Below, in pieces: positions 2,693 through 23,566 of a DNA stretch of 24,046 nt; the first letter of the stretch is position 1; each line of letters begins with the position of its first letter. The stretch covers positions 1 to 24,046 of IMG/VR virus record IMGVR_UViG_3300021079_000034; one strand, 5' to 3'. A program made the translations under genes and the position numbers. Source of the DNA: a virus. Below the pieces are notes generated by a model. That model did not search any database, was not told where the DNA came from, and worked only from the letters and a program-made list of their open reading frames with translations.

Positions 2693-5600
2693 TTAAACAG
2701 TGGCGTCTCCGGCAACAACCCAAGAATTAGCAGCAATCTTGATTAACGAGATCACCGCATATTGGCCGGATGTTTTAAGTCCATTTTTGCCAACTACACT
2801 AGTAGTTCCGGGCGTTACAGCAGAAACAGTAACAGTTCCAGTAGTGGAAGTTTGCATTAACAATATCTGTGTACCAATAGGAAACGCTATAGAAGCATCT
2901 GTTGGGATTGTAACCGAAACTCCAGCAGTATTATTCAGCGTTACCAAGTAACCAGCATCCGCAAGCACAATGGGATATGTAGTACCAGTTTGGTTGTTAA
3001 TCTGTGCTTTCGACGTAGCCACAGGCAACCGTTCGGCAGCACTGTTGGTGACGTACATTTGGCTGCTGTCCCATTCGACGGAATGAGCAACAGGAGTTGT
3101 CTGAACTGCCCCAGCTTGAAATTTTATAGGGGCACTCGTAAGCGTTCCTGCTGCAAAATTTTGCGTTGAACTTGCGGTAAAAGTATTACTTGCTAAAATT
3201 GCATTTGTGTTTCCGCGCGATGCAATTAGTCCAACCGTTAAAGACTCCGTTCCAATTTGCGTTCCAGTTGCGCCTGCCGCTAACCCTATACTTAAAAGAG
3301 CCCCCTGTTGACCCGCGCCAGAAGTAATTAAGACTAAAATAGGCGCAGTTATATTGCCTGTAAACCAGCTTGGACGAACAAGAGAAACTCCAGTACCAAT
3401 GGCAGTTACAACCCACGGGCCACTTTGCGCCAACGCCGTTTGACTCAAAAGAACGGTGTCTCCAATCGCCAGCGTCTTTCCATCAACTGTCAAAAGAGAT
3501 GCCGTAACAAGCGTGGTGAGCGTTGAATTGTAAAGAGTTATCGCTCCTGACCCAGTAAGCCCCGAGGCAACTGTCATCGTAATCTGAGTGGCGCTATCGA
3601 CTGATTTTATGACTCCGCTTGTGATTGGAGAGTTGAAGCTCATCCCAACAACCGGAGTTATTGAAGAGCTTGTAAATGTAATAACAGCAGATCCTGATGT
3701 CCAACTAGCACCAGTCAACGATCCAGCAGTTGCCGGAAGCACGTTGCTCGTCTGCCTGACGGTAACAAGTTGCGGCCCTCCAACAGCGGCCCTTGCGTCT
3801 CCTGCGGTGGTTCCTCCTGTTCCACCATTAGCAATCGCAAGCGTTCCAGCAAGTGATACTGCGCCCGTTGTAGCTGTGTTTGGCGTTAAACCAGTAGTTC
3901 CAGCGGAGAAGGATGAGACGCCAGCAGCACCACCCGTTGAAGCAATTGTAATCGTGCCATTCCCGTTAGTAACAGTTACATTTGAACCAGCAGTAATGGT
4001 TGCTTTGCTTAAACCTCCCGTAGCTGTATTTCCAATAAGCAACTGCCCATCAGTATATGTAATTTGTCCAGTGCCACCTTTATCTAAAGCAAGAGGAGCT
4101 GCACTTGTAAGCGCAGGCTGTGCCCCTAGTGACGCTAATGCTGTAACTTGAGTAGTTGCTCCCGTGCCGCCACTAGCAATTCCTAGAGTGCCTGAAAGCA
4201 TAACCGCACCAGTTGCTGGAGTGCCACTTGGAGTCAGCCCGGTGAGACTTGTAACAAAAGATGTCACTCCACCAGAAGAAGAAAATTGCGTGAACGCGAG
4301 ACTTGTTGTGCCAACCGTTATTGGGATTCTGGTCTGCTGAACCCACGCCGTGTTGGAAAGCGTTGATCCACTCAATACAAGTATGAAATCGCCTTGGTTA
4401 ATTTCGTTTGTGCCAGTGCCACTCGTGTCGTAATCGGTTGCTCTGGTTAAAACATATGGAACAGATGCAGTCCCGGCTGTTGTTAGCGTGTAAACGCCAT
4501 TAAAAGCTGCGCTCGGAGTTGTGTTATTTGTGAACGCTCCAGTTTCATTTTTGATTAACAGGCGCTTACCAACGTCCGTGGACAGCAACGTGTATCCATC
4601 AATAATTAACGTGCCAACTGCATTTGCGGTAATCGTTGCGCCAACGCCGGATGTTCCGTTTGAGTATGTGTACGCCGTTGGCAAGGCCGCTACTGTTGCG
4701 TAGTCGGCTGCATCGTGAAAGTTGATTCCTGAGCCAATTGAGTCCGCATAAGACTTTGGCACAAGGTCATTTGAGCCAGATGGGGCAGTCGATACTGTCC
4801 CAGTGGTCAATGCCACAGAGGTAATGTCTGTGTTTGCCCCAGAAGCGGCTGCGCTTAAAGCAGTTCTGGCAGCAGATGCTGAAGTTGCTGAAGTGCCCCC
4901 ATCCGAAATGGACACTGGCAATGAAACGCCCGCTCCCGTTGAGCCTTGTAGCCCGGTTGAGCCTTGCAAACCTGTTGAACCGATTCCAGTAGCCCCAATT
5001 AAGCCAGTTGCGCCCACTGTGCCTGTGCCTGTTGCTCCTACATCACCAGTTGCGCCCGTAGCTCCTGTCAATCCAATTAACCCTGCGCCAGTAGCTCCTG
5101 CGTTGCCAGCAGGGCCAGTTGCCCCTTGTAAACCCGTAGCTCCCGTTTCTCCCGTTCCTGTTGCTCCTTGCAATCCTGTTGAACCAACGCCCGTAGCGCC
5201 CTGTAGTCCTGTAGCTCCAATCAACCCTGTAGCCCCAACCCCTGTGGCTCCCGATAAACCCGTAGCCCCCTGCAACCCAGACGTAACAATTGCCCAAATT
5301 AACTGGTGATTGTTTGCGAAATTAGTAGTACCAGTGCCACCAGAAGCTTGAAGCGTTACAGGAATTAAAATGTAAGAATTGTCACCAATTGTTGGCGTGC
5401 CATTAATTTTCCAACTTTGATAATTGGTTGAATCGTTTCGATCCTGAATTACAAAAGTGTCGCCGTTTTTATACAGCGGGAAAAACACATCAATATCATT
5501 ATTGTTTGCATCAATGTGTGAAAATGCAACTTGAGTCGAAAGTATTTGTGTTAAATTGTTCCATTTAACATCTCCATTAGAGATAGCCGCAGTAGGAGGC

Positions 5601-6913
5601 ATCGTCTGCGATGCTGTGTTTGCATTGTAATTAAAAAACGAAGCGGATTGTCCATTTGCCCCAGTAGCGCCTTGATATCCCGTAGCCCCAATTCCAGTAG
5701 CTCCCAATAAACCTGTGCTACCTGACAAGCCAGTTGACCCCTGCAAACCTGTAGCCCCAACCCCTGTGGCTCCAGACAAGCCCGTAGCGCCAACCCCTGT
5801 CGAGCCCTGTAATCCCGTGGCTCCAATCCCTGTTGCTCCCGATAAGCCTGTAGCCCCAACGCCCGTTGCCCCTTGCGTCCCTGTAGCACCCGGCAAGCCG
5901 GCGCTGCCTACGCCAGTGGCTCCAGACAAGCCAGTGGCTCCTTGTAGTCCTGTAGCACCATCCACCCCAGTTGCACCAAGACCAGTTGCGCCTTGAACAC
6001 CAACTCCAGTCGCGCCTTGTAACCCTTGCGTTCCGGCTCCTGTGCTGCCTTGTAGGCCCGTTGCGCCTTGTAATCCTTGAGAACCAGTTCCAGTAGCTCC
6101 CTGTAACCCTGTGCTGCCTTGCAAGCCAGTAGAGCCAACGCCCGTAGCACCAGTAGCTCCCGCGTTGCCTGCAACGCCTGTGCCCGTAGCACCTTGCAAT
6201 CCCGTAGCACCAGCGATACCTACTCCAGTTGAACCTGCTAAACCAGTAGCACCTGCCAAACCAGTGGCTCCAGCCAATCCTACGCCAGTGGCCCCTGCAT
6301 TACCCGTTGCGCCAATGCCTGTCGCACCTTGTAGCCCAGTAGCACCAACACTACCAGCACCGCCAGTAGCACCAGCCTGACCCGTTGCTCCAACGCTTCC
6401 AGAAACGCCAGTTGCCCCCTGCAAGCCTGTTGAACCAATGCCTGTAGCGCCAGTTAATCCTGTGGCTCCCGCGTTGCCCGCAACGCCTGTGCCCGTTGCC
6501 CCAGTTAACCCAGTAGAACCAGCCGATCCAGTCGTGCCCGTAGCACCTTGTGGCCCTGTCGAGCCAAAACCAGTTGCACCTTGCAAGCCCGTACTGCCTT
6601 GCAAGCCAACACCTGTTGCGCCTTGTGTTCCAGAGCCCGTTGCTCCTTGAATGCCAACGCCAGTCGAACCTTGATAGCCCGTTGCTCCTTGAAATCCAAT
6701 TCCTGTTGAGCCTTGATACCCGGTTGCTCCTTGCAACCCTGTTGCGCCTCCGCTGCCGTGAGTAGCAATGTATTCCAACAACGACAAGACGTATTGCCGA
6801 TAAACGGCTGTAGATAAATTGCTGTGAATATCTACAACTCCAGAAGATCCAGCAATTTGCTGAAGCAACGTGAGTGCGTATTGCTGAAATTCTGCGGTAG
6901 ACAAATTAGACAT
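2693..6913 (-). CDS. Long collagen-like tail fibre
   Basis: 1406 residues. The first 50 contain two copies of a helical motif ([19 protein letters not shown] at 3-21, [19 protein letters not shown] at 32-50; 12 of 19 identical). Then come collagen triplets (about 57-418, [10 protein letters not shown] and variants), a globular insert (about 419-544, with [17 protein letters not shown]), a second collagen block (about 545-660), then a long beta region. The latter holds a tail-fibre repeat domain (about 700-870: [49 protein letters not shown]) and several 'SGGTGATT' linkers typical of fibre shafts. The product should be a trimeric receptor-binding fibre. It is the first gene after the capsid protein. 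AAGG seven bases before ATG is a weak Shine-Dalgarno. Confidence 0.9.
4935..5281 (-). repeat. Second collagen-coding repeat block of the fibre gene
   Basis: About 115 codons of Gly-X-Y triplets ([10 protein letters not shown] type), with imperfect DNA repeats of 9 and 18 bases. It is separated from the first block by a globular insert coded at about 5282-5656. Confidence 0.8.
5657..6752 (-). repeat. First collagen-coding repeat block of the fibre gene
   Basis: About 365 codons of Gly-X-Y triplets, mostly GATG, GLQG, GSTG and GVGA. Synonymous codons vary (GTAGCTCC, GTTGCGCC, GTGGCTCC on the plus strand), so the repeat is held at the protein level more than at the DNA level. The repetitive composition opens long shadow frames on both strands. 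Confidence 0.85.
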
Positions 6914-6981: not shown

Positions 6982-8196
6982 TTAAAGCCCAGTTGCTGCC
7001 GTAGAGCAAGGCAACGGCTGACCGTCAAACGGGCAACGCTTGTACAGAATCGGCATGACGTTCTGCGGACGAATTGGCTGAATTGCGCGGCTGATTTGGT
7101 AGATGTGCTGACCAAAGTCGCCGTACAAGTTACAGTCATTGTCGCGGAAGTAAGTCCATTCCAGTTCGCCCATTGCGAGCTGCGGGGCAAACTTAAACGT
7201 GCCTTCTCCGACATAGTTTTCGGGAACCAGACGCTTGAATGCATCGCCTGCAATCACGAATCCTACTTCGTAAGGAGCAGAGACCCAATCCGGGTTGCGG
7301 CGCTGCGCGAACCCGTTCGTAACGGCGGTGCTGATGATCGGGTTAACGAGCACCAGATTGCCATTAGAGTCGAACCCAGTTGCCCGGAGAGGCTGCTGGT
7401 CGATGCCGAATGCAAACCCACGGTAGCCTTGGAACTGGTAGCCGCTAATGGAGTCTTCACCGAGCTTGAAGCTGCCAGCGGTTAGGTACAGCAGATCTTC
7501 TTTCACGTCGGCGTCGTTGCGAATGTTTTCAATCGCATCGGCGGAGAGCATGACTTGGAAAAACTCGCCTTCCTTAGCCGCAAACGGTTCTGCGAGCATT
7601 TCTTCACGCAGGAACGTACCAGCCCGGTACAACGTCTTGAAGTTCAGCGGACCGTCAGGAAGGGTCTGCGCGAACTTCGTGTTGATGTTCTGCATGTCGC
7701 CCGTCAAATTGCTCGTGAACGACGCAGTGGTATTTACGACATACTTGACCCCGGACTGAATGAGGTACTGGTAACGAATGTCGGCGTTGATGATTTGAAG
7801 AATGGTCTTCTCCAAGCTCACCTGCGCCTGCAAGTACGAACCCTTGAACGCCGTCCGGGCCTGCTTAACGCAGACGCGAGGACCAGCGCCACGGAGCGTC
7901 TGGAGGCTGAACTGGTACTCCGTAGAGCCCACTTGGTCGGGAGTAGCGCCGACGCCGCAAAGCGTGGTGTCCTCGACAAACGTGGGGCTTGCCAGAGAAG
8001 CAGCCGGGACGGCCATTTCTTCGACTACGGAACGCACAACGTCAGAGACATTAGGGAGAGTTCCCCCGTCTATGCTGTTGATATACGGTGATTTGCGAGC
8101 CAAGACCTTTGCGATCTGGCCGATGATGCGGTTAACGTCTTTGCTCGCAAAATTTTGGATTGTTGCGAGAGGGATACAATTGTTTGTGTCTGCCAT
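6982..8196 (-). CDS. Major capsid protein
   Basis: 404 residues. The overall pattern is that of an HK97-fold-type phage capsid protein: a helical N-terminal arm (IIGQIAKVLARKSPYIN), a core with SLEKTILQIINADIRYQYLIQSGVKY, then GYQFQGYRGFAFGIDQQPLRA, RNPDWVSAPYEVGFVIAGD and a C-terminal LEWTYFRDNDCNLYGDFG stretch. These C-terminal phrases are, to my memory, typical of capsid proteins from environmental podovirus-like phages. Placement after portal and scaffold supports the call, though two glycosyltransferases and an exported protein lie between. It has seven Cys, which is rather many for a capsid protein. The leader (ATACCACTGTTATG) lacks a Shine-Dalgarno and is preceded by a C-rich repeat. 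Confidence 0.8.
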   Translation of the reverse strand: MADTNNCIPLATIQNFASKDVNRIIGQIAKVLARKSPYINSIDGGTLPNVSDVVRSVVEEMAVPAASLASPTFVEDTTLCGVGATPDQVGSTEYQFSLQTLRGAGPRVCVKQARTAFKGSYLQAQVSLEKTILQIINADIRYQYLIQSGVKYVVNTTASFTSNLTGDMQNINTKFAQTLPDGPLNFKTLYRAGTFLREEMLAEPFAAKEGEFFQVMLSADAIENIRNDADVKEDLLYLTAGSFKLGEDSISGYQFQGYRGFAFGIDQQPLRATGFDSNGNLVLVNPIISTAVTNGFAQRRNPDWVSAPYEVGFVIAGDAFKRLVPENYVGEGTFKFAPQLAMGELEWTYFRDNDCNLYGDFGQHIYQISRAIQPIRPQNVMPILYKRCPFDGQPLPCSTAATGL

Positions 8197-8223
8197 AACA
8201 GTGGTATTTAAGGTTTCTATCTA

Positions 8224-8248
8224 GGGTTGGTTTGGTTGGTTTGGTTTT
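8224..8248 (-). repeat. C-rich leader repeat before the capsid gene
   Basis: The plus strand reads GGG TTGG TTTGG TTGG TTTGG TTTT, so the mRNA carries AACCAAACCAACCAAACC between the FGE-like gene stop and the capsid start. It should be unstructured in RNA. The G-rich DNA strand has four or more GG tracts and could form a weak two-tier G-quadruplex. A similar ACCAACCAA run precedes the gene at 19795-20097. Confidence 0.4.
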
Positions 8249-8256
8249 GAGTTGTG

Positions 8257-9240
8257 TTAGTTTGCGAAGACGCGAAACCCAAAGCCTGCCTCTTGACGAG
8301 CTGGGTTTGAATAGCCACGTATCAAGGTGCGTTGCGAATTTGCGTCTTGTAACCAACAGCCGCCACGAACTCGGCGACCGTAAAGCGGCGCTGCATCATC
8401 AAAGCACCATTCGTTTACGTTTCCGCTCATGTCGTAGATGCTCAATTCATTGGCGGTTTTACCCATGACAGGCTGCGCACCTCGCGCAGGGATGTTGGTG
8501 CTCGACCATGCAACGGAAGTTGATGTGTTGCTCCCCGAGTAGGTGTACGATCCGCTAGAAACGCCACCCAGAGCTGCCCATTCCCATTCTTTTTCGCTCG
8601 GCAGACGGTAGCCAGTTGCGGTTGCATCTACGTTTGGAACAACGTCGCCAGTTGTGTACAACACCGTTGCAACAAGTGTTCCAGTGGCGGTTGCTGTGCC
8701 AGACACCACCGTTTGATACGTGAACGTGGTAGCATTCACAACAAACACCGAGCGGGTAAGGTTGTAGCCAGTAGGAGTTGCTCCAGTCACCCGCACCCAA
8801 GCGCCAGAAGAGAGCTTGTGGCCTCCGGGTACGATAGCCGTGGCGACCGTGCCAGTGCTGGTCAGCGATCCGACAGACAATGTTCCAACATTGTAAACCG
8901 GGGTTAACGTGCCTTGCTGAATGGTTGCGGCATTGCACCACTTCAGTGCGTCGTACCAGTTGAGAGTCTCAACGGGAGCGGTTGCCGAGTAGCCAGTGCC
9001 AGACAAGGAGAGGTCAAACCCTCCGATGTTGCCTGCATATGTGCGAACGGCCAGCCATTCAGTGTAGTTGACTTCGCTTTGACCGACCTTAAAGCCAGTG
9101 ACTGCCTGCCCTTTAAAATTTGAGGCGGGAGCAATAGCAGAAGTGCCAGCAACTGTTACAAGTGTATTCCAAGCAGCTTCGCTGGTGCTAATGCCCAATG
9201 CAGAAACCGCGACGATCAGGATTCCTTTAAGGAACTTCAT
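8257..9240 (-). CDS. Secreted FGE/SUMF1-fold protein with an inserted beta domain
   Basis: 327 residues. A Sec signal peptide (MKFLKGILIVAVSALGISTSEA, likely cut before AW) precedes a formylglycine-generating-enzyme fold: VGQSEVNYTEWLAVRTYA (52-69), LNWYDALKWCNA, GYRLPSEKEWEWAALGG (about 210-226), MSGNVNEWCFDD, and the RRVRGGCW...GFGFRV end. Residues about 119-193 are an insert of the type GGHKLSSGAWVRVTGATPTGYN, a beta motif frequent in phage tail proteins. The two catalytic Cys of true sulfatase-activating FGE are absent from the C-terminal GGCWLQDANSQRT segment, so enzyme activity is unlikely. The fold is C-type-lectin-like and often used for ligand binding. The closest style is Verrucomicrobiota SUMF1 proteins (from memory). 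It sits 60 bases upstream of the capsid gene. Confidence 0.85.
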   Translation of the reverse strand: MKFLKGILIVAVSALGISTSEAAWNTLVTVAGTSAIAPASNFKGQAVTGFKVGQSEVNYTEWLAVRTYAGNIGGFDLSLSGTGYSATAPVETLNWYDALKWCNAATIQQGTLTPVYNVGTLSVGSLTSTGTVATAIVPGGHKLSSGAWVRVTGATPTGYNLTRSVFVVNATTFTYQTVVSGTATATGTLVATVLYTTGDVVPNVDATATGYRLPSEKEWEWAALGGVSSGSYTYSGSNTSTSVAWSSTNIPARGAQPVMGKTANELSIYDMSGNVNEWCFDDAAPLYGRRVRGGCWLQDANSQRTLIRGYSNPARQEAGFGFRVFAN

Positions 9241-9246
9241 AAGTGT

Positions 9247-9296
9247 GTTTTCTAGTGGTTGAATTGTTCTGCCTGAACAATAACCAGTTAGAAAAC
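9247..9296 (-). other. Long imperfect RNA hairpin upstream of the FGE-like gene
   Basis: Arms GTTTTCTA / TAGAAAAC, TGGTT / AACCA and ATTGTTC / GAACAAT pair in order around a 5-base loop, 20 pairs in all, with small bulges (g opposite gt, and a 2-base ga). On the minus-strand transcript it ends six bases before the ATG of the FGE-like gene and touches the stop of the 39-codon ORF. There is no T-run after it, so it is not a standard terminator. It could protect or process mRNA, or mask the start. Confidence 0.6.
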
Positions 9297-9415
9297 TAGG
9301 CTACGTCCAAGCGTGCAATTGCCTGCGCGGCAACGCAAAAGTCTTGTTTGTAGCCCCCGTCGTCTGGGCGGATATTACGACCGTTTGCAGGTTTAGGTCC
9401 TGCAACCAGCTTCAT
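9296..9415 (-). CDS. Small hypothetical ORF (39 aa)
   Basis: ATG at 9415-9413 and TAG at 9298-9296 enclose 39 codons, product beginning MKLVAGPKPANGR and ending IARLDVA. The frame is open upstream to 9470 with a GTG at 9430, so the start is unsure. It lies in the 257-base gap between a glycosyltransferase and the FGE-like gene, behind a candidate promoter (9440-9468). No family is recognised and no Shine-Dalgarno is present. It could be a leader peptide or chance ORF. Confidence 0.35.
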   Translation of the reverse strand: MKLVAGPKPANGRNIRPDDGGYKQDFCVAAQAIARLDVA

Positions 9416-9439
9416 GCGGAGAAGCCACACCGTGCTTTG

Positions 9440-9468
9440 CTTATAGCCTGCCCAATATTTTGAAGCAA
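9440..9468 (-). promoter_or_regulatory. Candidate sigma70-type promoter for the FGE/capsid genes
   Basis: On the minus strand TTGCTT (9468-9463), a 17-base spacer and TATAAG (9445-9440). It is in the only sizeable gap between the scaffold/glycosyltransferase genes and the capsid gene, and would drive the small ORF, FGE-like protein and capsid protein. The -35 box is a moderate match. Confidence 0.4.
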
Positions 9469-9497
9469 ACTATTTTTATGACAAAGTGAAAAATATT

Positions 9498-10085
9498 TTA
9501 GCTTCCCTCTGGCTGGCTAAATATTTCCTGCATTTTTGCAGACCGATACTTGCCTCCTCGACTGCGAACATGCACAACCCTTTCAAGCAGAACGCCAAGC
9601 TCTGGTTCACAATTAAGAATATCCACCTCCGGGCGGACATTCCCATCTTCACTTAGATCCTCGGAGATAAACTTCCGAATTGCTCCAAGGCAGTGCTCGG
9701 CGCTGGCATAAAACAAGTATGCCGGGCCTTCGTTTAGAAGGAGTGTCTTCTTTTCGGCTTCTTTTGCAGCCCGTGGCGTTAGGTCAAGGTTCAAAACATC
9801 GTAATCCGACATCCAGCCCCCGCCAGCAGCATGCAAGGCGCACCAGCGGGTAAACCTCGATTGGAACCATGCCGCCCGGGCCACGAGGCTGTTGTGTTTG
9901 TTTAACTCTTGAGCCAGCTTTTGTTGTAACTTGTTGTACAGCGGGCTTCCTTGAGCGTGCGACCTATTAAGCATTACGGGGTTCCAACCGTTGGCAGTCC
10001 ATGAGGTTTTCCACCAGTTCGCGCAGGCGAATTCTTCGGGCTGATCTGCGGTCGGAATTGATTGATAAAATGCGTATATGTTCAT
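9498..10085 (-). CDS. Glycosyltransferase with DXD motif (GT32-like sugar-binding region)
   Basis: 195 residues. The motif RWCALHAAGGGWMSDYDVLN (about 80-99) resembles the DXD sugar-binding region of GT32-type transferases, with Asp94 and Asp96 as the nucleotide-sugar/metal ligands. The N-terminus (MNIYAFYQSIPT) starts directly in a beta strand, as in GT-A folds. The TGATG overlap with the upstream glycosyltransferase stop makes 10085 the best start, although the frame is open to 10169. It probably transfers a sugar to a virion or host-surface component, perhaps together with its neighbour. The acceptor is unknown. Confidence 0.65.
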   Translation of the reverse strand: MNIYAFYQSIPTADQPEEFACANWWKTSWTANGWNPVMLNRSHAQGSPLYNKLQQKLAQELNKHNSLVARAAWFQSRFTRWCALHAAGGGWMSDYDVLNLDLTPRAAKEAEKKTLLLNEGPAYLFYASAEHCLGAIRKFISEDLSEDGNVRPEVDILNCEPELGVLLERVVHVRSRGGKYRSAKMQEIFSQPEGS

Positions 10086-11104
10086 CAGTATGTTTTGTAT
10101 CCGAGATGCTTCACCGGGACCCCGAGGTCGATGTGGCATTGATGCCCAGCCTGCTTTGCTCGCCTGCAAAACGCAATATCCTCACTGGCTCCTGTTGTTG
10201 GCAAGAAGTAGTCGTTTTTTACTTCTGGTTGAGTGGCGTCGATGTCCTCAAATACTTTTCGGTGAATCATAATACAGCCAGCTCCAATCCAATCGACTGG
10301 CGCAACCTTGTCAGAAAACGCCCGGGCGTCTGCGACAAGAGATTGGTCGCTGCACATCAGCCGCGCACCTTCCTGTCTGCCAAAGTACGCAGCCCCGACA
10401 AGCCGCTTACCAGCGCCCATCAGACGGTGAAGAACGTGCCGAAGAAGCGGCTGGTCCAGCATTGTCCGGGTTGACTCAACCCAGCTCTTGTACCAAGCCG
10501 CTCGGCCAATGCTTGGAATGATGTCATGGTCGAGCATGAACAGCCACTTGGCGTCAGTCTCGAGGAACTTTTTGGCAATCATGTTCCGAGCGACGTGAAT
10601 TTCGGTGTTCGTCACGCAGTCAAATCGAATGCGATCCTTCCCAAAATCCAGCGCCATTGCCACGAGCGCCATCGTTGTGACCGGGTTGCTGGTCGTGTAC
10701 CAAGGCAGGCCAACAAAAATGTCTCGCCCGGCAAACTCGCAGCGGTAAGACGGCATCCCATTTTGGTCATGGGACTCTGTGATTGGATTGGTAAACGGAG
10801 TCGGCTCCTCTACGGTTTCTGTTGTCTGCAAAGGAACCGTAACGTCAGCAGGCTCCGGCTCTTTAATTTCCTCAAGAACGGCCTTGGGGCGGCGGCGGCG
10901 GCGTTCTTTGCTTTCAATTGCAATATCGATCATGTCATCACCTTCAATCTCCCGCTCCTTAATTGGGTCGGGGTCTGGATCTGGCATACTTGCAACCGGG
11001 CGACCGTCCAGCGTTTGCGGCGGGCGTACCGGGGTCGAAAATGGGTTGGCTGAGTCTAGCGCCGAAAGTGTACGACGCTCCATTGGAGATATTTTTGGCT
11101 CCAT
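10085..11104 (-). CDS. Glycosyltransferase (GT-A fold) with disordered N-terminal extension
   Basis: 339 residues. The first 120 or so are low-complexity: PDPDPDPIKERE, RRRRRPK, and Pro/Glu/Thr-rich stretches. The catalytic part follows: DIFVGLPWYTTSNPVT (about 128-143), RNMIAKKFLETDAKWLFMLD with the metal-binding DHD at 192-194, then VDWIGAGCIMIHRKVFEDI and GASEDIAFCRRAKQAGH, the two phrases that close a phage GT2-like active site. It starts two bases after the scaffold stop. Placement among head genes suggests a sugar put on the capsid or made during assembly, but the acceptor cannot be read from sequence. The N-terminal tail is unusual for this family. Confidence 0.8.
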   Translation of the reverse strand: MEPKISPMERRTLSALDSANPFSTPVRPPQTLDGRPVASMPDPDPDPIKEREIEGDDMIDIAIESKERRRRRPKAVLEEIKEPEPADVTVPLQTTETVEEPTPFTNPITESHDQNGMPSYRCEFAGRDIFVGLPWYTTSNPVTTMALVAMALDFGKDRIRFDCVTNTEIHVARNMIAKKFLETDAKWLFMLDHDIIPSIGRAAWYKSWVESTRTMLDQPLLRHVLHRLMGAGKRLVGAAYFGRQEGARLMCSDQSLVADARAFSDKVAPVDWIGAGCIMIHRKVFEDIDATQPEVKNDYFLPTTGASEDIAFCRRAKQAGHQCHIDLGVPVKHLGYKTY

Positions 11105-11106
11105 AA

Positions 11107-12372
11107 TTAAGCGCCAGCTTCATCCAGACCCATGTCAATTGCGTCCGAGGCCGACATTTTGATGCGGTCGCTCATATTGCCGTTTTTTGATGAAGTCTGG
11201 CCTGATACAGAACTGCGCGGCATTTTTCCAGACGCCTTAATTGAATTCAGCTCCTTAGTTAGCTGTGTAATCTGCTGCTGTAGTTTTGCGCTTTGTGACT
11301 GCTCGTAACGTAACTGGTTTGTTACGACGTGGCTCAAAGTTGCTGCGGCAGCAATTGCAGCCCGCTCGCTGGAACTTTTTGGATATAACGCCGAGTTGAA
11401 CTTGGTTTCCAAATCCTTCACCCCTTCGTTGTGAGCCTGAATCCGTTGCACCTGCTCTGCGGTAGCCCCGGGCGGAATCTCTTGGTAGCGTGCCCAAGGA
11501 ACATCCTTTGTCAGATTCTCGACGTAGCCGTAAACTTGCCGGGATTCTTGTTGCTGCATTTCTTGCTGCTCGGCCTGACGCTGTTGCATCCACGCTTCTT
11601 GGTTTTGCGATGCCATTTCCAAGTCTTGCTCGCGAGATGACTCAATGTCGTCAATCTGAAGCAGTGCATTTTCAAGCCTGCGAGCGTCCACATACCCATC
11701 CTCGGTCGCGGCCAATCGGTCAATAGCATTTCGCTTCCACCATGCCTTGCTTACTTTTCCGGGGCCTCCAGCCTCTTCAATTGACTTGATTACGTCCTCC
11801 CCGGCTTTGTGTTTACGCAACAAGCCGTAAATACTTTCTGCGCTCTGTTTTAATGGAGCGTCATACTTTTCCTTAAATCCGGGATCGTTCTTGAGGTCAA
11901 ATGTGGCCCGGAATTTACGCAACTCATCGTAGTCAGGCGGAGCTTGCTGTTGGGATTCAGCCAGCTTTTGACGAAGAATTTCAGCCTCTGCCGCCTGTCG
12001 CTTGGCCAAGCTGGCGCTTTCTGCAAGCTTGCGCCAGTTTGACTGTTGCTTCTCAGACATATTTGGCGGCATTGGAATTGCCGCTATTTCAGGGTCAATT
12101 TCTGGCTGTTGTTTCCCAAAATCTGTCTGGAAATTTGCGCTGAACGGATTTTGTATTTCCTGTTTAGCCGCAGGCTTTTCTGCTTGAACATTTCTTTGAT
12201 ATGCAGACGAATTGTCCAAAGAATTGTCCAAAGAATTGTCCTCTGCCGCATCTAGGGCTGAGTCAATTGAATCACTAAGTGACTGGCTAATTGGGTCGGC
12301 ATCTAGCCGGGCCGCTCCGCCATCGGGATTTGCTGGTGTGATTTCTGGTACTGTGTCGTCGGTGTCGATCAT
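11107..12372 (-). CDS. Scaffold (head assembly) protein
   Basis: 421 residues, acidic and Gln/Glu/Ala-rich with long predicted coiled coil (about 105-170 and 250-310, e.g. QRQAEQQEMQQQESRQV) and a helical, basic C-terminal segment (SSKNGNMSDRIKMSASDAI). No enzyme motif. Its place between portal and capsid genes and its composition fit an internal scaffold that shapes the procapsid and leaves before packaging. The start at ATG 12372 (MIDTDDTVPEIT) lies four bases after the upstream gene's stop. The frame is open to 12450, but that part overlaps the previous gene. A 12-base tandem repeat encodes NSLDNSLDN near residue 46. Confidence 0.75.
   Translation of the reverse strand: MIDTDDTVPEITPANPDGGAARLDADPISQSLSDSIDSALDAAEDNSLDNSLDNSSAYQRNVQAEKPAAKQEIQNPFSANFQTDFGKQQPEIDPEIAAIPMPPNMSEKQQSNWRKLAESASLAKRQAAEAEILRQKLAESQQQAPPDYDELRKFRATFDLKNDPGFKEKYDAPLKQSAESIYGLLRKHKAGEDVIKSIEEAGGPGKVSKAWWKRNAIDRLAATEDGYVDARRLENALLQIDDIESSREQDLEMASQNQEAWMQQRQAEQQEMQQQESRQVYGYVENLTKDVPWARYQEIPPGATAEQVQRIQAHNEGVKDLETKFNSALYPKSSSERAAIAAAATLSHVVTNQLRYEQSQSAKLQQQITQLTKELNSIKASGKMPRSSVSGQTSSKNGNMSDRIKMSASDAIDMGLDEAGA
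12209..12241 (-). repeat. 12-base tandem repeat inside the scaffold gene
   Basis: Unit GAATTGTCCAAA (plus strand) in 2.75 copies; it codes in-frame for repeated DNSL/LDNS, so copy-number change would keep the frame. Confidence 0.85.
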
Positions 12373-21735: not shown

Positions 21736-21920
21736 ACTTCTCCCTCCTCGCGTTCAATGGCCCTGTAAAGCTCTGCCTGTTTTAGTTCGTGGTAATTCAC
21801 TAACAGCCGCAAAACACACAGCAACGTGCTGTCCTCTGTTGTTTCCGCAAAATCCTCTACGTAAGCGGCGATGCGGCTTAGCATAATGCTATGAGTTTCG
21901 TTAAGTAGTTCTTCTGTCAT
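21732..21920 (-). CDS. Small helical hypothetical protein (62 aa)
   Basis: MTEELLNETHSIMLSRIAAYVEDFAETTED then STLLCVLRLLVNYHELKQAELYRAIEREEGEV, probably two or three helices, acidic. Both ends overlap neighbours by ATGA (MTase stop and the next start). No family recognised; a small regulatory or binding protein is only a guess. Confidence 0.7.
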   Translation of the reverse strand: MTEELLNETHSIMLSRIAAYVEDFAETTEDSTLLCVLRLLVNYHELKQAELYRAIEREEGEV

Positions 21921-23566
21921 AATTGTTGTATCAATGTTCTAAACGCTAATTCTGCCGTTGCTGGGACTACTCCGTTGCCAAGGAGCCGCAGTTCGTCGGT
22001 GCGATTTCCTTGACTGGCTGCTTCGACATAGCACCCGTTCTCCCAAACCTTTTGGTCAAGAGTGGATCTCCATACTTCTTCCATCTCTGATAATGCATCA
22101 GACAAAGCCCATGCCCTTTCGCTGGCTTCTCGCAAACCTTGCAAGATTGCCGCTCCTTCCACGGCTTCTTGCCTTCTTTCCAATGCAATTTCGTATGACA
22201 ACTGGCACAAAGCGTAACCAAGTTCTCGTTTAAATTGTTCAATGAATTCCTGTCCTTGTGATGGATTCCCACAAGATTCGTAGACCCACATTCCTGACAG
22301 GCCCCAGCCTTGAATTGGGTGGCCCGTTTGTACGCACCAGACAAAGTAACAGATTCTTTGAGTGAATGCTGCCAACTGCATTCCCGTCCACAGTATTTCC
22401 TCCGCAAGAAAACACTGAAGTCCTCTAGTCGTCCATTGAACTTCTTGCGTGTTAGCTTTACTCCACACTTCAAACAGGATTTGTCTGGCTCTTGCTTTTT
22501 CGGATAAACTCTCATAGGCATTCACACTATCCCCATAAGGATTCAGCGTCAAGGTTTCACCCAGAACACTGGAAGATTCATTAGCACACAAACCCAGCGC
22601 GGGTTCAGTTTCCCGTTCGTATTGTGTTGAGCCTGCTCCCCCAGTCTGTGTTTCCCGCTGTCCTCCTGCTTGTCCTGCGCCATCAAACATCGAGGTGTTG
22701 CCCACGATTGCACTTGAGCCGTCAATGGCATCGTTGCCACATCCCCCTTGGCTTGTCTCAAGGCCCAAGTCTCTGGGTTCTCGTCCGGGGTCTGCCACGA
22801 CTCTGGGCGGCTCCCATGTGTATTGGGGTTGTCCGGGACGGGCTGGCCATGCATCGCTACAGCATTCGGCAGCGTGTCCGCTGGATGCCCCTTGCGCTGC
22901 TGCCTCCCAGAACCACTTAATCCCTTGTAGTCCCGAGTCGCGCAAGTGGGCCAGTTGGATTCCTCCCTCTTCACCGCGCTCCCAAGCCGAGGCCATTTGA
23001 TTCCCTGCGAGTCCACTTGATAGCCAATATGATTTTTGCATTCTATCGTAGGCCAAGATAAACACTCGTTTGCGCTGGTGACTCGCGTTGCATTCAGCCG
23101 CACTGAATATTCCAAACGTCGTTTCGTAACCAATGCTTTCCAACTCTGCAACGACTTCTCGGAGTCCGAGACTAATGTGTCCTTCGACGTTTTCAAAGAA
23201 GCAGATTCGTGGCCGAAGAAGTCGAATTCCGCTTGCGATGTAGGGCCAAAGATGTCGCTCGTCTTCTGCTCCTTTACGTTGTCCTGCGGCTGAAAATGGC
23301 TGGCAGGGATATCCGCCAGAGAGGACGTCCACTTTTCCAGAAAACTCTGCCCAAGGGAAGGACTTGAGATTACTCCAGATCGGAGCCGCATCAAGTTGCC
23401 CGCCTTCCATTCTCGCAAGAAGGAGTTCGCACGCGAAGGCTTCGATCTCCGCATAAGCGACCGTTCGCAAATTTGGGAGCACTCTACGGAGTCCAAGGTC
23501 AATGCCTCCGTACCCGGAGCAAAGGCTGATATGAGTGATTTCGGTAGTATCCACATAATTATTCAT
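21917..23566 (-). CDS. C5-cytosine DNA methyltransferase, frame interrupted by an HNH-coding segment
   Basis: 549 codons. Methylates cytosine in DNA using SAM, likely to shield the phage genome from restriction. Seen: motif I LCSGYGGIDLGL (15-26), PCQPFS with catalytic Cys88 (motif IV), ENV at 125-127 (motif VI), QRKRVF at 164-169 (motif VIII), a variable region with WPARPGQPQYTWEPPRVV (about 240-258), and motif X LRLLGNGVVPATAELAF near the C-terminus (about 525-541). Residues 349-533 lie over an HNH endonuclease gene in another frame, yet stay open, so motif X is joined in frame. Residues about 5-339 also overlap a second long frame. ATG 23566 overlaps the upstream stop by 8 bases (ATGAATAA). 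Confidence 0.9.
   Translation of the reverse strand: MNNYVDTTEITHISLCSGYGGIDLGLRRVLPNLRTVAYAEIEAFACELLLARMEGGQLDAAPIWSNLKSFPWAEFSGKVDVLSGGYPCQPFSAAGQRKGAEDERHLWPYIASGIRLLRPRICFFENVEGHISLGLREVVAELESIGYETTFGIFSAAECNASHQRKRVFILAYDRMQKSYWLSSGLAGNQMASAWERGEEGGIQLAHLRDSGLQGIKWFWEAAAQGASSGHAAECCSDAWPARPGQPQYTWEPPRVVADPGREPRDLGLETSQGGCGNDAIDGSSAIVGNTSMFDGAGQAGGQRETQTGGAGSTQYERETEPALGLCANESSSVLGETLTLNPYGDSVNAYESLSEKARARQILFEVWSKANTQEVQWTTRGLQCFLAEEILWTGMQLAAFTQRICYFVWCVQTGHPIQGWGLSGMWVYESCGNPSQGQEFIEQFKRELGYALCQLSYEIALERRQEAVEGAAILQGLREASERAWALSDALSEMEEVWRSTLDQKVWENGCYVEAASQGNRTDELRLLGNGVVPATAELAFRTLIQQL
21967..22521 (-). CDS. HNH endonuclease coded inside the methyltransferase gene, different frame
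   Basis: 184 residues. C16xxC19 and C44xxxC48 form an N-terminal zinc site; the HNH core is C75xxC78, H87-H88 (IHHKDRN), N100 (NENLVTLC) and C105xxC108-H109; a second Cys/His module follows (C127xxC130, GLCLMHYQRW with C140 and H143). This is the layout of phage HNH homing-type endonucleases. A TGA sits directly before the ATG at 22521. The last 15 codons or so run through the motif X region of the methyltransferase in another frame. HNH genes are mobile, so it probably invaded the MTase gene between its recognition region and motif X. Confidence 0.85.
   Translation of the reverse strand: MPMRVYPKKQEPDKSCLKCGVKLTRKKFNGRLEDFSVFLRRKYCGRECSWQHSLKESVTLSGAYKRATQFKAGACQECGSTNLVGIHHKDRNSLNNLNENLVTLCASCHTKLHWKEGKKPWKERQSCKVCEKPAKGHGLCLMHYQRWKKYGDPLLTKRFGRTGAMSKQPVKEIAPTNCGSLATE
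22549..23556 (-). CDS. Second long reading frame across the methyltransferase gene (WPT-repeat type)
   Basis: 335 codons, same strand as the methyltransferase but shifted. From about residue 100 it reads like a phage family I recall next to or over C5-MTase genes: SWPTIECKNH (about 170), NWPTCATRDYKGLSGSGRQQ, TLPNAVAMHGQ, SWQTPDENP, SWATPR and the closing LNPRWVCVLMNLPVFW. The closing phrase corresponds to the family's LNPRWVEWLMGFPxGWT. The first 100 codons resemble shifted MTase sequence (DIPASHFQPQ opposite GYPCQPF), so the true start is probably internal. It ends 27 bases before the HNH start. I cannot search, so family membership rests on memory. Confidence 0.5.
   Translation of the reverse strand: MWILPKSLISAFAPGTEALTLDSVECSQICERSLMRRSKPSRANSFLREWKAGNLMRLRSGVISSPSLGQSFLEKWTSSLADIPASHFQPQDNVKEQKTSDIFGPTSQAEFDFFGHESASLKTSKDTLVSDSEKSLQSWKALVTKRRLEYSVRLNATRVTSANECLSWPTIECKNHIGYQVDSQGIKWPRLGSAVKREESNWPTCATRDYKGLSGSGRQQRKGHPADTLPNAVAMHGQPVPDNPNTHGSRPESWQTPDENPETWALRQAKGDVATMPLTAQVQSWATPRCLMAQDKQEDSGKHRLGEQAQHNTNGKLNPRWVCVLMNLPVFWVKP

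Follow-up and report, generated by a model that had tools for sequence, protein, structure and literature searches.

The presumed capsid gene in a set of related viral contigs is preceded by a conserved promoter and, directly behind it, a structured RNA of about 190 nucleotides, which fairly probably forms a cis-acting 5′ leader of the capsid transcript. A covariance model of the RNA matched 103 of 105 capsid-bearing contigs, once each. Sequence comparison indicates that the RNA is conserved, with its sequence largely rewritten and its fold kept through compensatory changes. In the predicted fold, a hairpin on the 5′ side is followed by three H-type pseudoknots in tandem, and a fourth pseudoknot is probable at the 5′ end. 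We infer that the leader acts on the capsid transcript at the level of its stability, its translation or its elongation.

The locus and the distribution of the RNA

The stretch analyzed, called the window here, is a 24,046-base IMG/VR virus record, and all of its genes discussed below lie on the minus strand. A first-pass annotation of the window had pointed to promoter words, a 39-codon open reading frame (ORF) and a 50-base hairpin of 20 pairs; all three are present on the minus strand where it had placed them, flanked by an upstream gene at 10169-9498 (-) and by a gene with an FGE-sulfatase (FGE) domain (Table 1).

Table 1. Leader features and neighboring genes in the window
Feature	Position	Strand	Remarks
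-35 hexamer TTGCTT	9463..9468	-	Fixed place in relatives
-10 hexamer TATAAG	9440..9445	-	17-nt spacer to -35; fixed place in relatives
P0 5′ arm CGG	9430..9432	-	Pairs with CCG 9419-9417 in the P1 loop, 3 bp (probable)
RNA core (P1, PK1, PK2)	9349..9432	-	R1 match, E 3.6e-7; the window's group is not in the model
Hairpin P1	9408..9426	-	Stem 9426-9421/9413-9408; conserved loop UCCGCAU 9420-9414
39-codon ORF, incidental	9296..9415	-	ATG 9415-9413, stop TAG 9298-9296
PK1, H-type pseudoknot	9387..9407	-	9407-9404/9399-9396 and 9403-9400/9390-9387
PK2, H-type pseudoknot	9353..9381	-	9381-9377/9363-9359 and 9369-9366/9358-9353
P4 5′ arm GGCUAC	9350..9355	-	Pairs with GUAGCC 9304-9299; partly shared with PK2
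P5 hairpin inside P4	9315..9336	-	Leader fold; covariation in another group
PK3 5′ arm GCUUGGAC	9305..9312	-	3′ arm GUUCAGGC at 9278-9271; forms a long-range pseudoknot with P4
P6, 20-pair hairpin, 50 bases	9247..9296	-	Inner part competes with PK3 3′ arm 9278-9271
FGE-sulfatase domain gene	8257..9240	-	PF03781, E 2.6e-21; first gene 3′ of the leader
Putative major capsid gene (HK97-like fold suspected)	6982..8196	-	tblastn relatives, weak Foldseek matches

The first-pass annotation had called the downstream genes capsid genes. The putative capsid protein has no sequence match in Pfam, PHROG or the PDB, and the name draws its support from weak structural matches. An AlphaFold model of the protein is of low confidence (mean pLDDT, 46.5). 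When this model was compared with the PDB by Foldseek, the first 25 matches were all phage or phage-satellite particles, nearly all of them titled capsids, at weak scores (best E value, 0.018, none below 0.001; TM-scores below 0.3). A BFVD search with the same model returned several weak matches carrying capsid names. On the evidence of the model, the gene at 6982-8196 is likely the capsid gene.

A tblastn search with the putative capsid protein found 145 relatives among candidate stretches of viral contigs, and the best 80 of the 145 were kept. Two later scans returned 80 relatives each, mostly from contigs already in the set, and added 3 and then 20 new contigs; by scan, the count of contigs ranged from 145 to 154. 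Neither the presumed capsid and portal proteins (tblastn) nor two leaders (blastn) had a match in 50,697 phage records. The capsid protein had no relative in the genome contigs either.

The covariance model, R1, was built from 25 aligned leaders outside the window's group, a group being a set of leaders that look alike, and contains only three nested helices, P1, PK1a and PK2a. The window's group was left out because MAFFT mis-set PK1 there, and R1 still misaligns some leaders of that group. With E values up to 0.05 allowed, R1 was run on both strands of 84 sources, which are the window plus 83 loci and total 901,011 bases. It matched 83 of the 84, with one match each; 25 of the loci had gone into the model. 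Among 21 further sources outside the model, 20 were matched. The matches lie directly 5′ of the capsid gene or of an FGE gene placed before it. Of the two sources lacking a match, L008 displays the RNA by eye, and the contig of L342 begins inside it. When 26 contigs of the 84 were searched whole, each held one strong match, and two held a weak second one. Many of the sources are near-identical phages, and alignment A3 accordingly contains 66 distinct rows among 83.

R1 was also run on 88 of at least 128 loci gathered by a 14-base pattern scan and one further search, and gave at least 14 strong matches, that of L281 included; 13 of the 14 are in contigs that have the arrangement described above. 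The other, a copy scoring 97 bits, is at L170:6024-6119 (+), in a 65-kb contig outside the capsid lists, where the sequence piece ends before the next gene. Weaker matches in the same set were those of L203 (E value, 0.018) and L236 (0.096). Within the related contigs, weak matches were found in L034 (2e-4, within a coding frame) and L024 (0.079), and within the window at 20683-20589 (0.0016, inside an ORF) and 21794-21830 (0.28); those in the window and in the L034 and L024 contigs were taken as chance. In a related phage, the segment L034:5093-5129 (+), upstream of the capsid leader, scored 44.5 bits against abiF (RF03085), which exceeds the gathering threshold of this RNA family.

Searches of Rfam 15 with the leaders of the window and nine relatives gave no match at the gathering level, and the best Rfam match in 9200-9520 had an E value of 9.7. 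ARAGORN reported no tRNA or tmRNA gene in the window and six loci. As a whole, the window's leader (9500-9225, minus strand) folds with a z score of -4.31, which none of 200 shuffles equaled.

In 17 of the 105 sources, an FGE gene separates the capsid gene from the leader, and in these the RNA stays beside the promoter. Ten loci have an FGE gene together with a leader that is clearly alignable with that of the window. In loci lacking the FGE gene, the same kind of RNA is found directly 5′ of the capsid gene, as read in 23 loci and then in the remaining leaders. The FGE-domain genes of L032, L041, L064, L066 and L303 are only about 38 to 58% identical to the window's gene at 8257-9240 (-) and occupy the same slot between leader and capsid gene, behind rather different leaders, which suggests that the gene has repeatedly been inserted or exchanged at this site.

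A 4-mer resembling a Shine-Dalgarno sequence was absent behind the leader in all 54 distinct start contexts, but only 2 of the 22 gene starts examined in the window have one, and its absence is therefore not special to the leader; the host may make little use of this signal. Elsewhere in the window, an ORF of 1,406 amino acids at 2693-6913 (-) holds long collagen-like G-A-T-G repeats and is perhaps a fiber protein. A C-5 cytosine methylase ORF (21917-23566, minus strand; 549 amino acids; PF00145) is overlapped in other frames by ORFs at 22549-23556 (-) (335 amino acids, no Pfam match) and 21967-22521 (-) (184 amino acids; HNH domain PF01844, E value, 1.2e-4), and this region possibly contains overlapping genes or a frame change.

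Helices of the core and of the 3′ half

Over the 66 distinct rows of A3, the 27 pairs of the five core helices are paired in 89.5% of cells, compared with 66.3% in shuffled controls and at most 43.4% when partners were slid. Changes on both sides of a pair were counted in 443 cells (138 shuffled), and the covariation score was 0.628, against 0.213 in shuffled alignments (0 of 500 reached it) and 0.070 to 0.114 with slid partners. Counting how many pairs have changed on both sides (26, compared with 20.4 shuffled) is a weak measure. Hairpin P1 has changes on both sides in all six of its pairs and is paired in 97.9% of cells, and across the family its loop reads UCCGNAU. One P1 pair is G-U in 38 of the 66 rows; such frequent G-U pairing is in keeping with an RNA of capsid sense.

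A3 was fitted to P1, PK1a and PK2a, and the fit favors those helices. The helices that are absent from the model, PK1b and PK2b, are paired in 78.8% of cells, with a covariation score of 0.530, compared with 0.189 shuffled and at most 0.127 slid. Eleven of their pairs have changes on both sides (9.8 shuffled), a count reached by 118 of 500 shuffles, and the pair at the outer end is weak both in PK1b (33 sequences unpaired) and in PK2b (40). The covariation behind PK1 and PK2 is that of the family, and their register inside the window was read by eye.

The additional helix at the 5′ end, P0, is probable. By eye, the 78 distinct leaders comprise 60 with CGG/CCG, 11 with CGA/UCG, 2 with CGC/GCG and 3 with UGC/GCG, while P0 is unpaired in L033 and L361; a count by regular expression gave 12 for CGA/UCG and 2 for UGC/GCG. 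Within A3, P0 is nearly invariant and displays almost no covariation.

Downstream of the core, the full-length MAFFT alignment sets PK3 out of register between groups, and PK3 was therefore counted within one group and by scripts. In A6, for which 20 leaders from a single group were aligned by MAFFT alone, P4, P5 and PK3 together are 91.6% paired, with a covariation score of 0.405, compared with 0.156 shuffled and at most 0.100 slid. Changes on both sides were found in 13 of 24 pairs (8.1 shuffled), distributed as 1 of 6 in P4, 6 of 10 in P5 and 6 of 8 in PK3, and this alignment too has many G-U pairs, fitting an RNA of the capsid-sense strand. Across groups, the two arms of PK3 are rewritten together, as in CTTGAAT/GTTCAAG, GCTTCTAATG/TATTAGGGGC and CCTTGTGG/CTGCAAGG. 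The mean PK3 score was 15.9 for a leader's own arms, 12.8 for swapped arms and 11.5 for shuffled ones. When the 65 distinct leaders were taken singly, the score exceeded that of 95% of dinucleotide shuffles in 38 and fell short in 27, with the worst scores in L041, L054, L068 and L025; the failures stem partly from the script mis-setting P4 in some leaders.

The minimum-energy local structure of L010 and of L024 is a long hairpin formed by PK3 and the 3′ strand of P4. At L010:378-441 and L024:5934-6003, this strand can extend the PK3 helix, to 20 bp in L010. The hairpin is an alternative to P4 and may mark a two-state switch in these leaders.

The promoter, the short reading frame and the terminal hairpin

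The promoter is conserved in the relatives, and its support comes from its fixed distance to the RNA, not from its match to the consensus. In the window, it has 8 of 12 consensus matches, and for that reason it is not in the list of the promoter scan. Among 64 distinct upstream segments, a TTG starts 44 to 38 nucleotides 5′ of the RNA core in 55, compared with 2 to 19 in the seven other intervals of equal width. This count at a fixed place was added because the search for the best site itself favors TTG. The best-scoring site has a spacing of 16 to 18 in 60 of the 64 segments, and its -10 element ends 7 to 11 nucleotides 5′ of the core in 61; at least 9 consensus matches were reached in 30 of the 64, compared with 14% of plain base shuffles. 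Since the promoter lies at a fixed distance, the start of the RNA falls roughly where transcription is expected to begin. Between 8000 and 12000, the minus strand has no terminator-like site, and the leader and the genes that follow it therefore probably form one transcript.

The 39-codon ORF is not conserved across the aligned leaders and is incidental. Among ten aligned relatives, only L003 has the same frame in full. The leader of L002 is 97.5% identical to that of the window, yet its frame is shifted and ends after 37 codons, and in the other relatives the ORF ends after 5 to 77 codons, starts elsewhere or lacks the AUG. Among 67 distinct leaders, the frame behind the first AUG has a length of 2 to 80 codons in 48, and the other 19 have no AUG there. 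In many leaders, the AUG of the ORF falls at the conserved P1 loop. The first-pass annotation had offered attenuation as one role of the leader; attenuation by a leader peptide was rejected since the frame is not conserved and no intrinsic terminator follows the ORF (minus strand, 8000-12000). A reading of the hairpin as a terminator was likewise rejected, there being neither a U run behind it nor a terminator-like site in the same interval of that strand.

This hairpin, P6, is the last and most variable part of the larger RNA. In the window, its folding energy is -18.6 kcal/mol (z score, -5.53; 0 of 200 dinucleotide shuffles as good). It ends just before the start codon, as had been noted, with the FGE ATG 6 nucleotides beyond it. 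The stop codon of the ORF, which it was said to contain, has only its last base in the stem, with the other two outside. Conservation of the stem, proposed in the first-pass annotation as a check, was borne out within the window's group, where the outer stem is kept by covariation and has been rebuilt with five sequences (one in the window, L002, L003 and L004; one each in L005, L006 and L013; and one in L008 and L009). Seven folded members of the group gave z scores of -3.0 to -6.4, with 0 to 3 of 200 shuffles as good; the piece folded for L009 runs past the ATG, and its outer 3′ arm overlaps the start codon. P6 is also found in L034 (z score, -4.5). Folding gave a weak or absent P6 in L007 (-0.7), L031 (-1.5) and L059 (-1.1), and in L066 an FGE gene lies, as read by eye, between the 5′ arm and TTAGAAAAC, the latter standing 5′ of the capsid gene. 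Start masking as a general function of the hairpin is contradicted by these four loci. The inner P6 pairs 9281-9275/9269-9263 use the PK3 bases 9278-9271, so that the two pairings are mutually exclusive. The suggestion of a control leader holds in one respect, that of a promoter of its own before the capsid genes, which is well supported, and falls short in another, the hairpin being only one part of a larger RNA whose pseudoknots had gone unseen.

Possible roles of the leader

That the RNA stays with the promoter when an FGE gene intervenes suggests that it serves the transcript and not the capsid start codon; likewise, with an FGE gene in front of the capsid gene, masking of the capsid start is not the leader's general role. 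As a leader of the capsid transcript, the RNA would act in cis. Its 5′ end would be folded from about the first transcribed base, shielding the transcript from 5′-end-dependent decay, and the exclusive pairing of PK3 or P6 near the start codon could allow a bound factor to control how often translation of the first gene starts. Capsid protein would then be produced in large amounts, at a level of its own. In our judgment, transcript stabilization needs far less structure, and a specific partner or a role in trans is possible. A bolder reading, which we consider less likely than not, is that four chained pseudoknots starting at about the first transcribed base constitute a new class of phage RNA device, a specific ribonucleoprotein switch for shell supply with the decay machinery, the ribosome or RNA polymerase as its target, in uncultivated phages whose contigs are mostly up to 60 to 70 kb.

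The elaborate fold, the single strong copy in each of the 26 contigs searched whole and the link to the transcript whichever gene comes first would also suit a noncoding RNA that is released from the capsid transcript by cleavage near its 5′ end and works in trans, for example in capsid assembly, in genome packaging or against the host. Such a role is unlikely, however: the minus strand has no terminator-like site in 8000-12000, the structure reaches to a few nucleotides from the start codon in the window's group, and the sources examined always have the capsid gene, or the FGE and capsid genes, behind the RNA. To our knowledge, the put RNA of phage HK022 contains no comparable chain of pseudoknots, and its fold is different. 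It is nevertheless the precedent for a further candidate, an element that binds RNA polymerase and gives read-through of pauses or terminators in a long morphogenesis operon. The leader is promoter-proximal, its start lies close to the expected +1, and it remains beside the promoter even where the capsid gene is not the first gene behind it, and HK022 putRNA is likewise described as a cis-acting phage RNA that works on its own transcript and alone suppresses pausing and termination (PMC9378689). Unlike the leader, put is described there as serving early genes, and with no terminator-like site found on the minus strand in 8000-12000 we consider a put-like function distinctly improbable.

An autogenous operator, in which the capsid or another late protein would bind the pseudoknots and repress translation, has the described precedent of T4 gp32 (PMC3014915), and both the position of the pseudoknots 5′ of a gene for a presumably very abundant protein and the exclusion between PK3 and P6 near the ATG are in keeping with it. 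In the 17 of 105 sources with an FGE gene in between, though, direct control of capsid initiation would be lost, and the probability of this arrangement is low. That the region holds only a chance hairpin and promoter-like words in an ordinary, unstructured leader is scarcely credible given the covariation and the fixed position in more than 100 contigs, even though the window's promoter matches the consensus at just 8 of 12 positions and is missing from the scan list.

Among described systems, the leader of T4 gene 32 resembles the cis-acting leader favored here in placing a pseudoknot in a phage mRNA 5′ of the start codon, and the transcripts of gene 32 are described as exceeding other T4 mRNAs in stability (PMC3014915). 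It differs, as far as that paper describes it, in that a lone pseudoknot precedes a gene for a single-strand-binding protein, rather than three or four in a chain preceding a presumed capsid gene. STAXI (RF01728) likewise consists of tandem pseudoknots, usually three, and is described from Enterobacteriales near DNA-handling genes (PMC2864571), not before a presumed capsid gene; it repeats one pseudoknot, whereas the units here differ, by eye, in length and loops, and the leaders of the window and nine relatives had no RF01728 match at the gathering level. The manA and wcaG motifs are, like the leader, structured RNAs, found mainly in metagenomes and phages (cyanophages), and are potential 5′ untranslated regions; as presented in PMC2864571, they are linked to metabolic and photosynthetic genes, and the leader here had no Rfam match. 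The main text of a study of human microbiomes (PMC8040213) does not contain the word capsid. The literature searched, which included few subscription papers, yielded no such structured leader on a tailed-phage capsid transcript, the phage pseudoknot leader found in it being that of T4 gene 32 (PMC3014915).

From its sequence and setting, the leader looks like an undescribed control element on the shell transcript. The 17 of 105 sources in which an FGE gene follows the leader provide a natural test of transcript control versus control of capsid translation, and the chained-pseudoknot architecture is ready for three-dimensional work. Having been kept by compensatory changes in more than 100 contigs while its sequence was largely rewritten, the leader must matter for the making or timing of shells in these phages.
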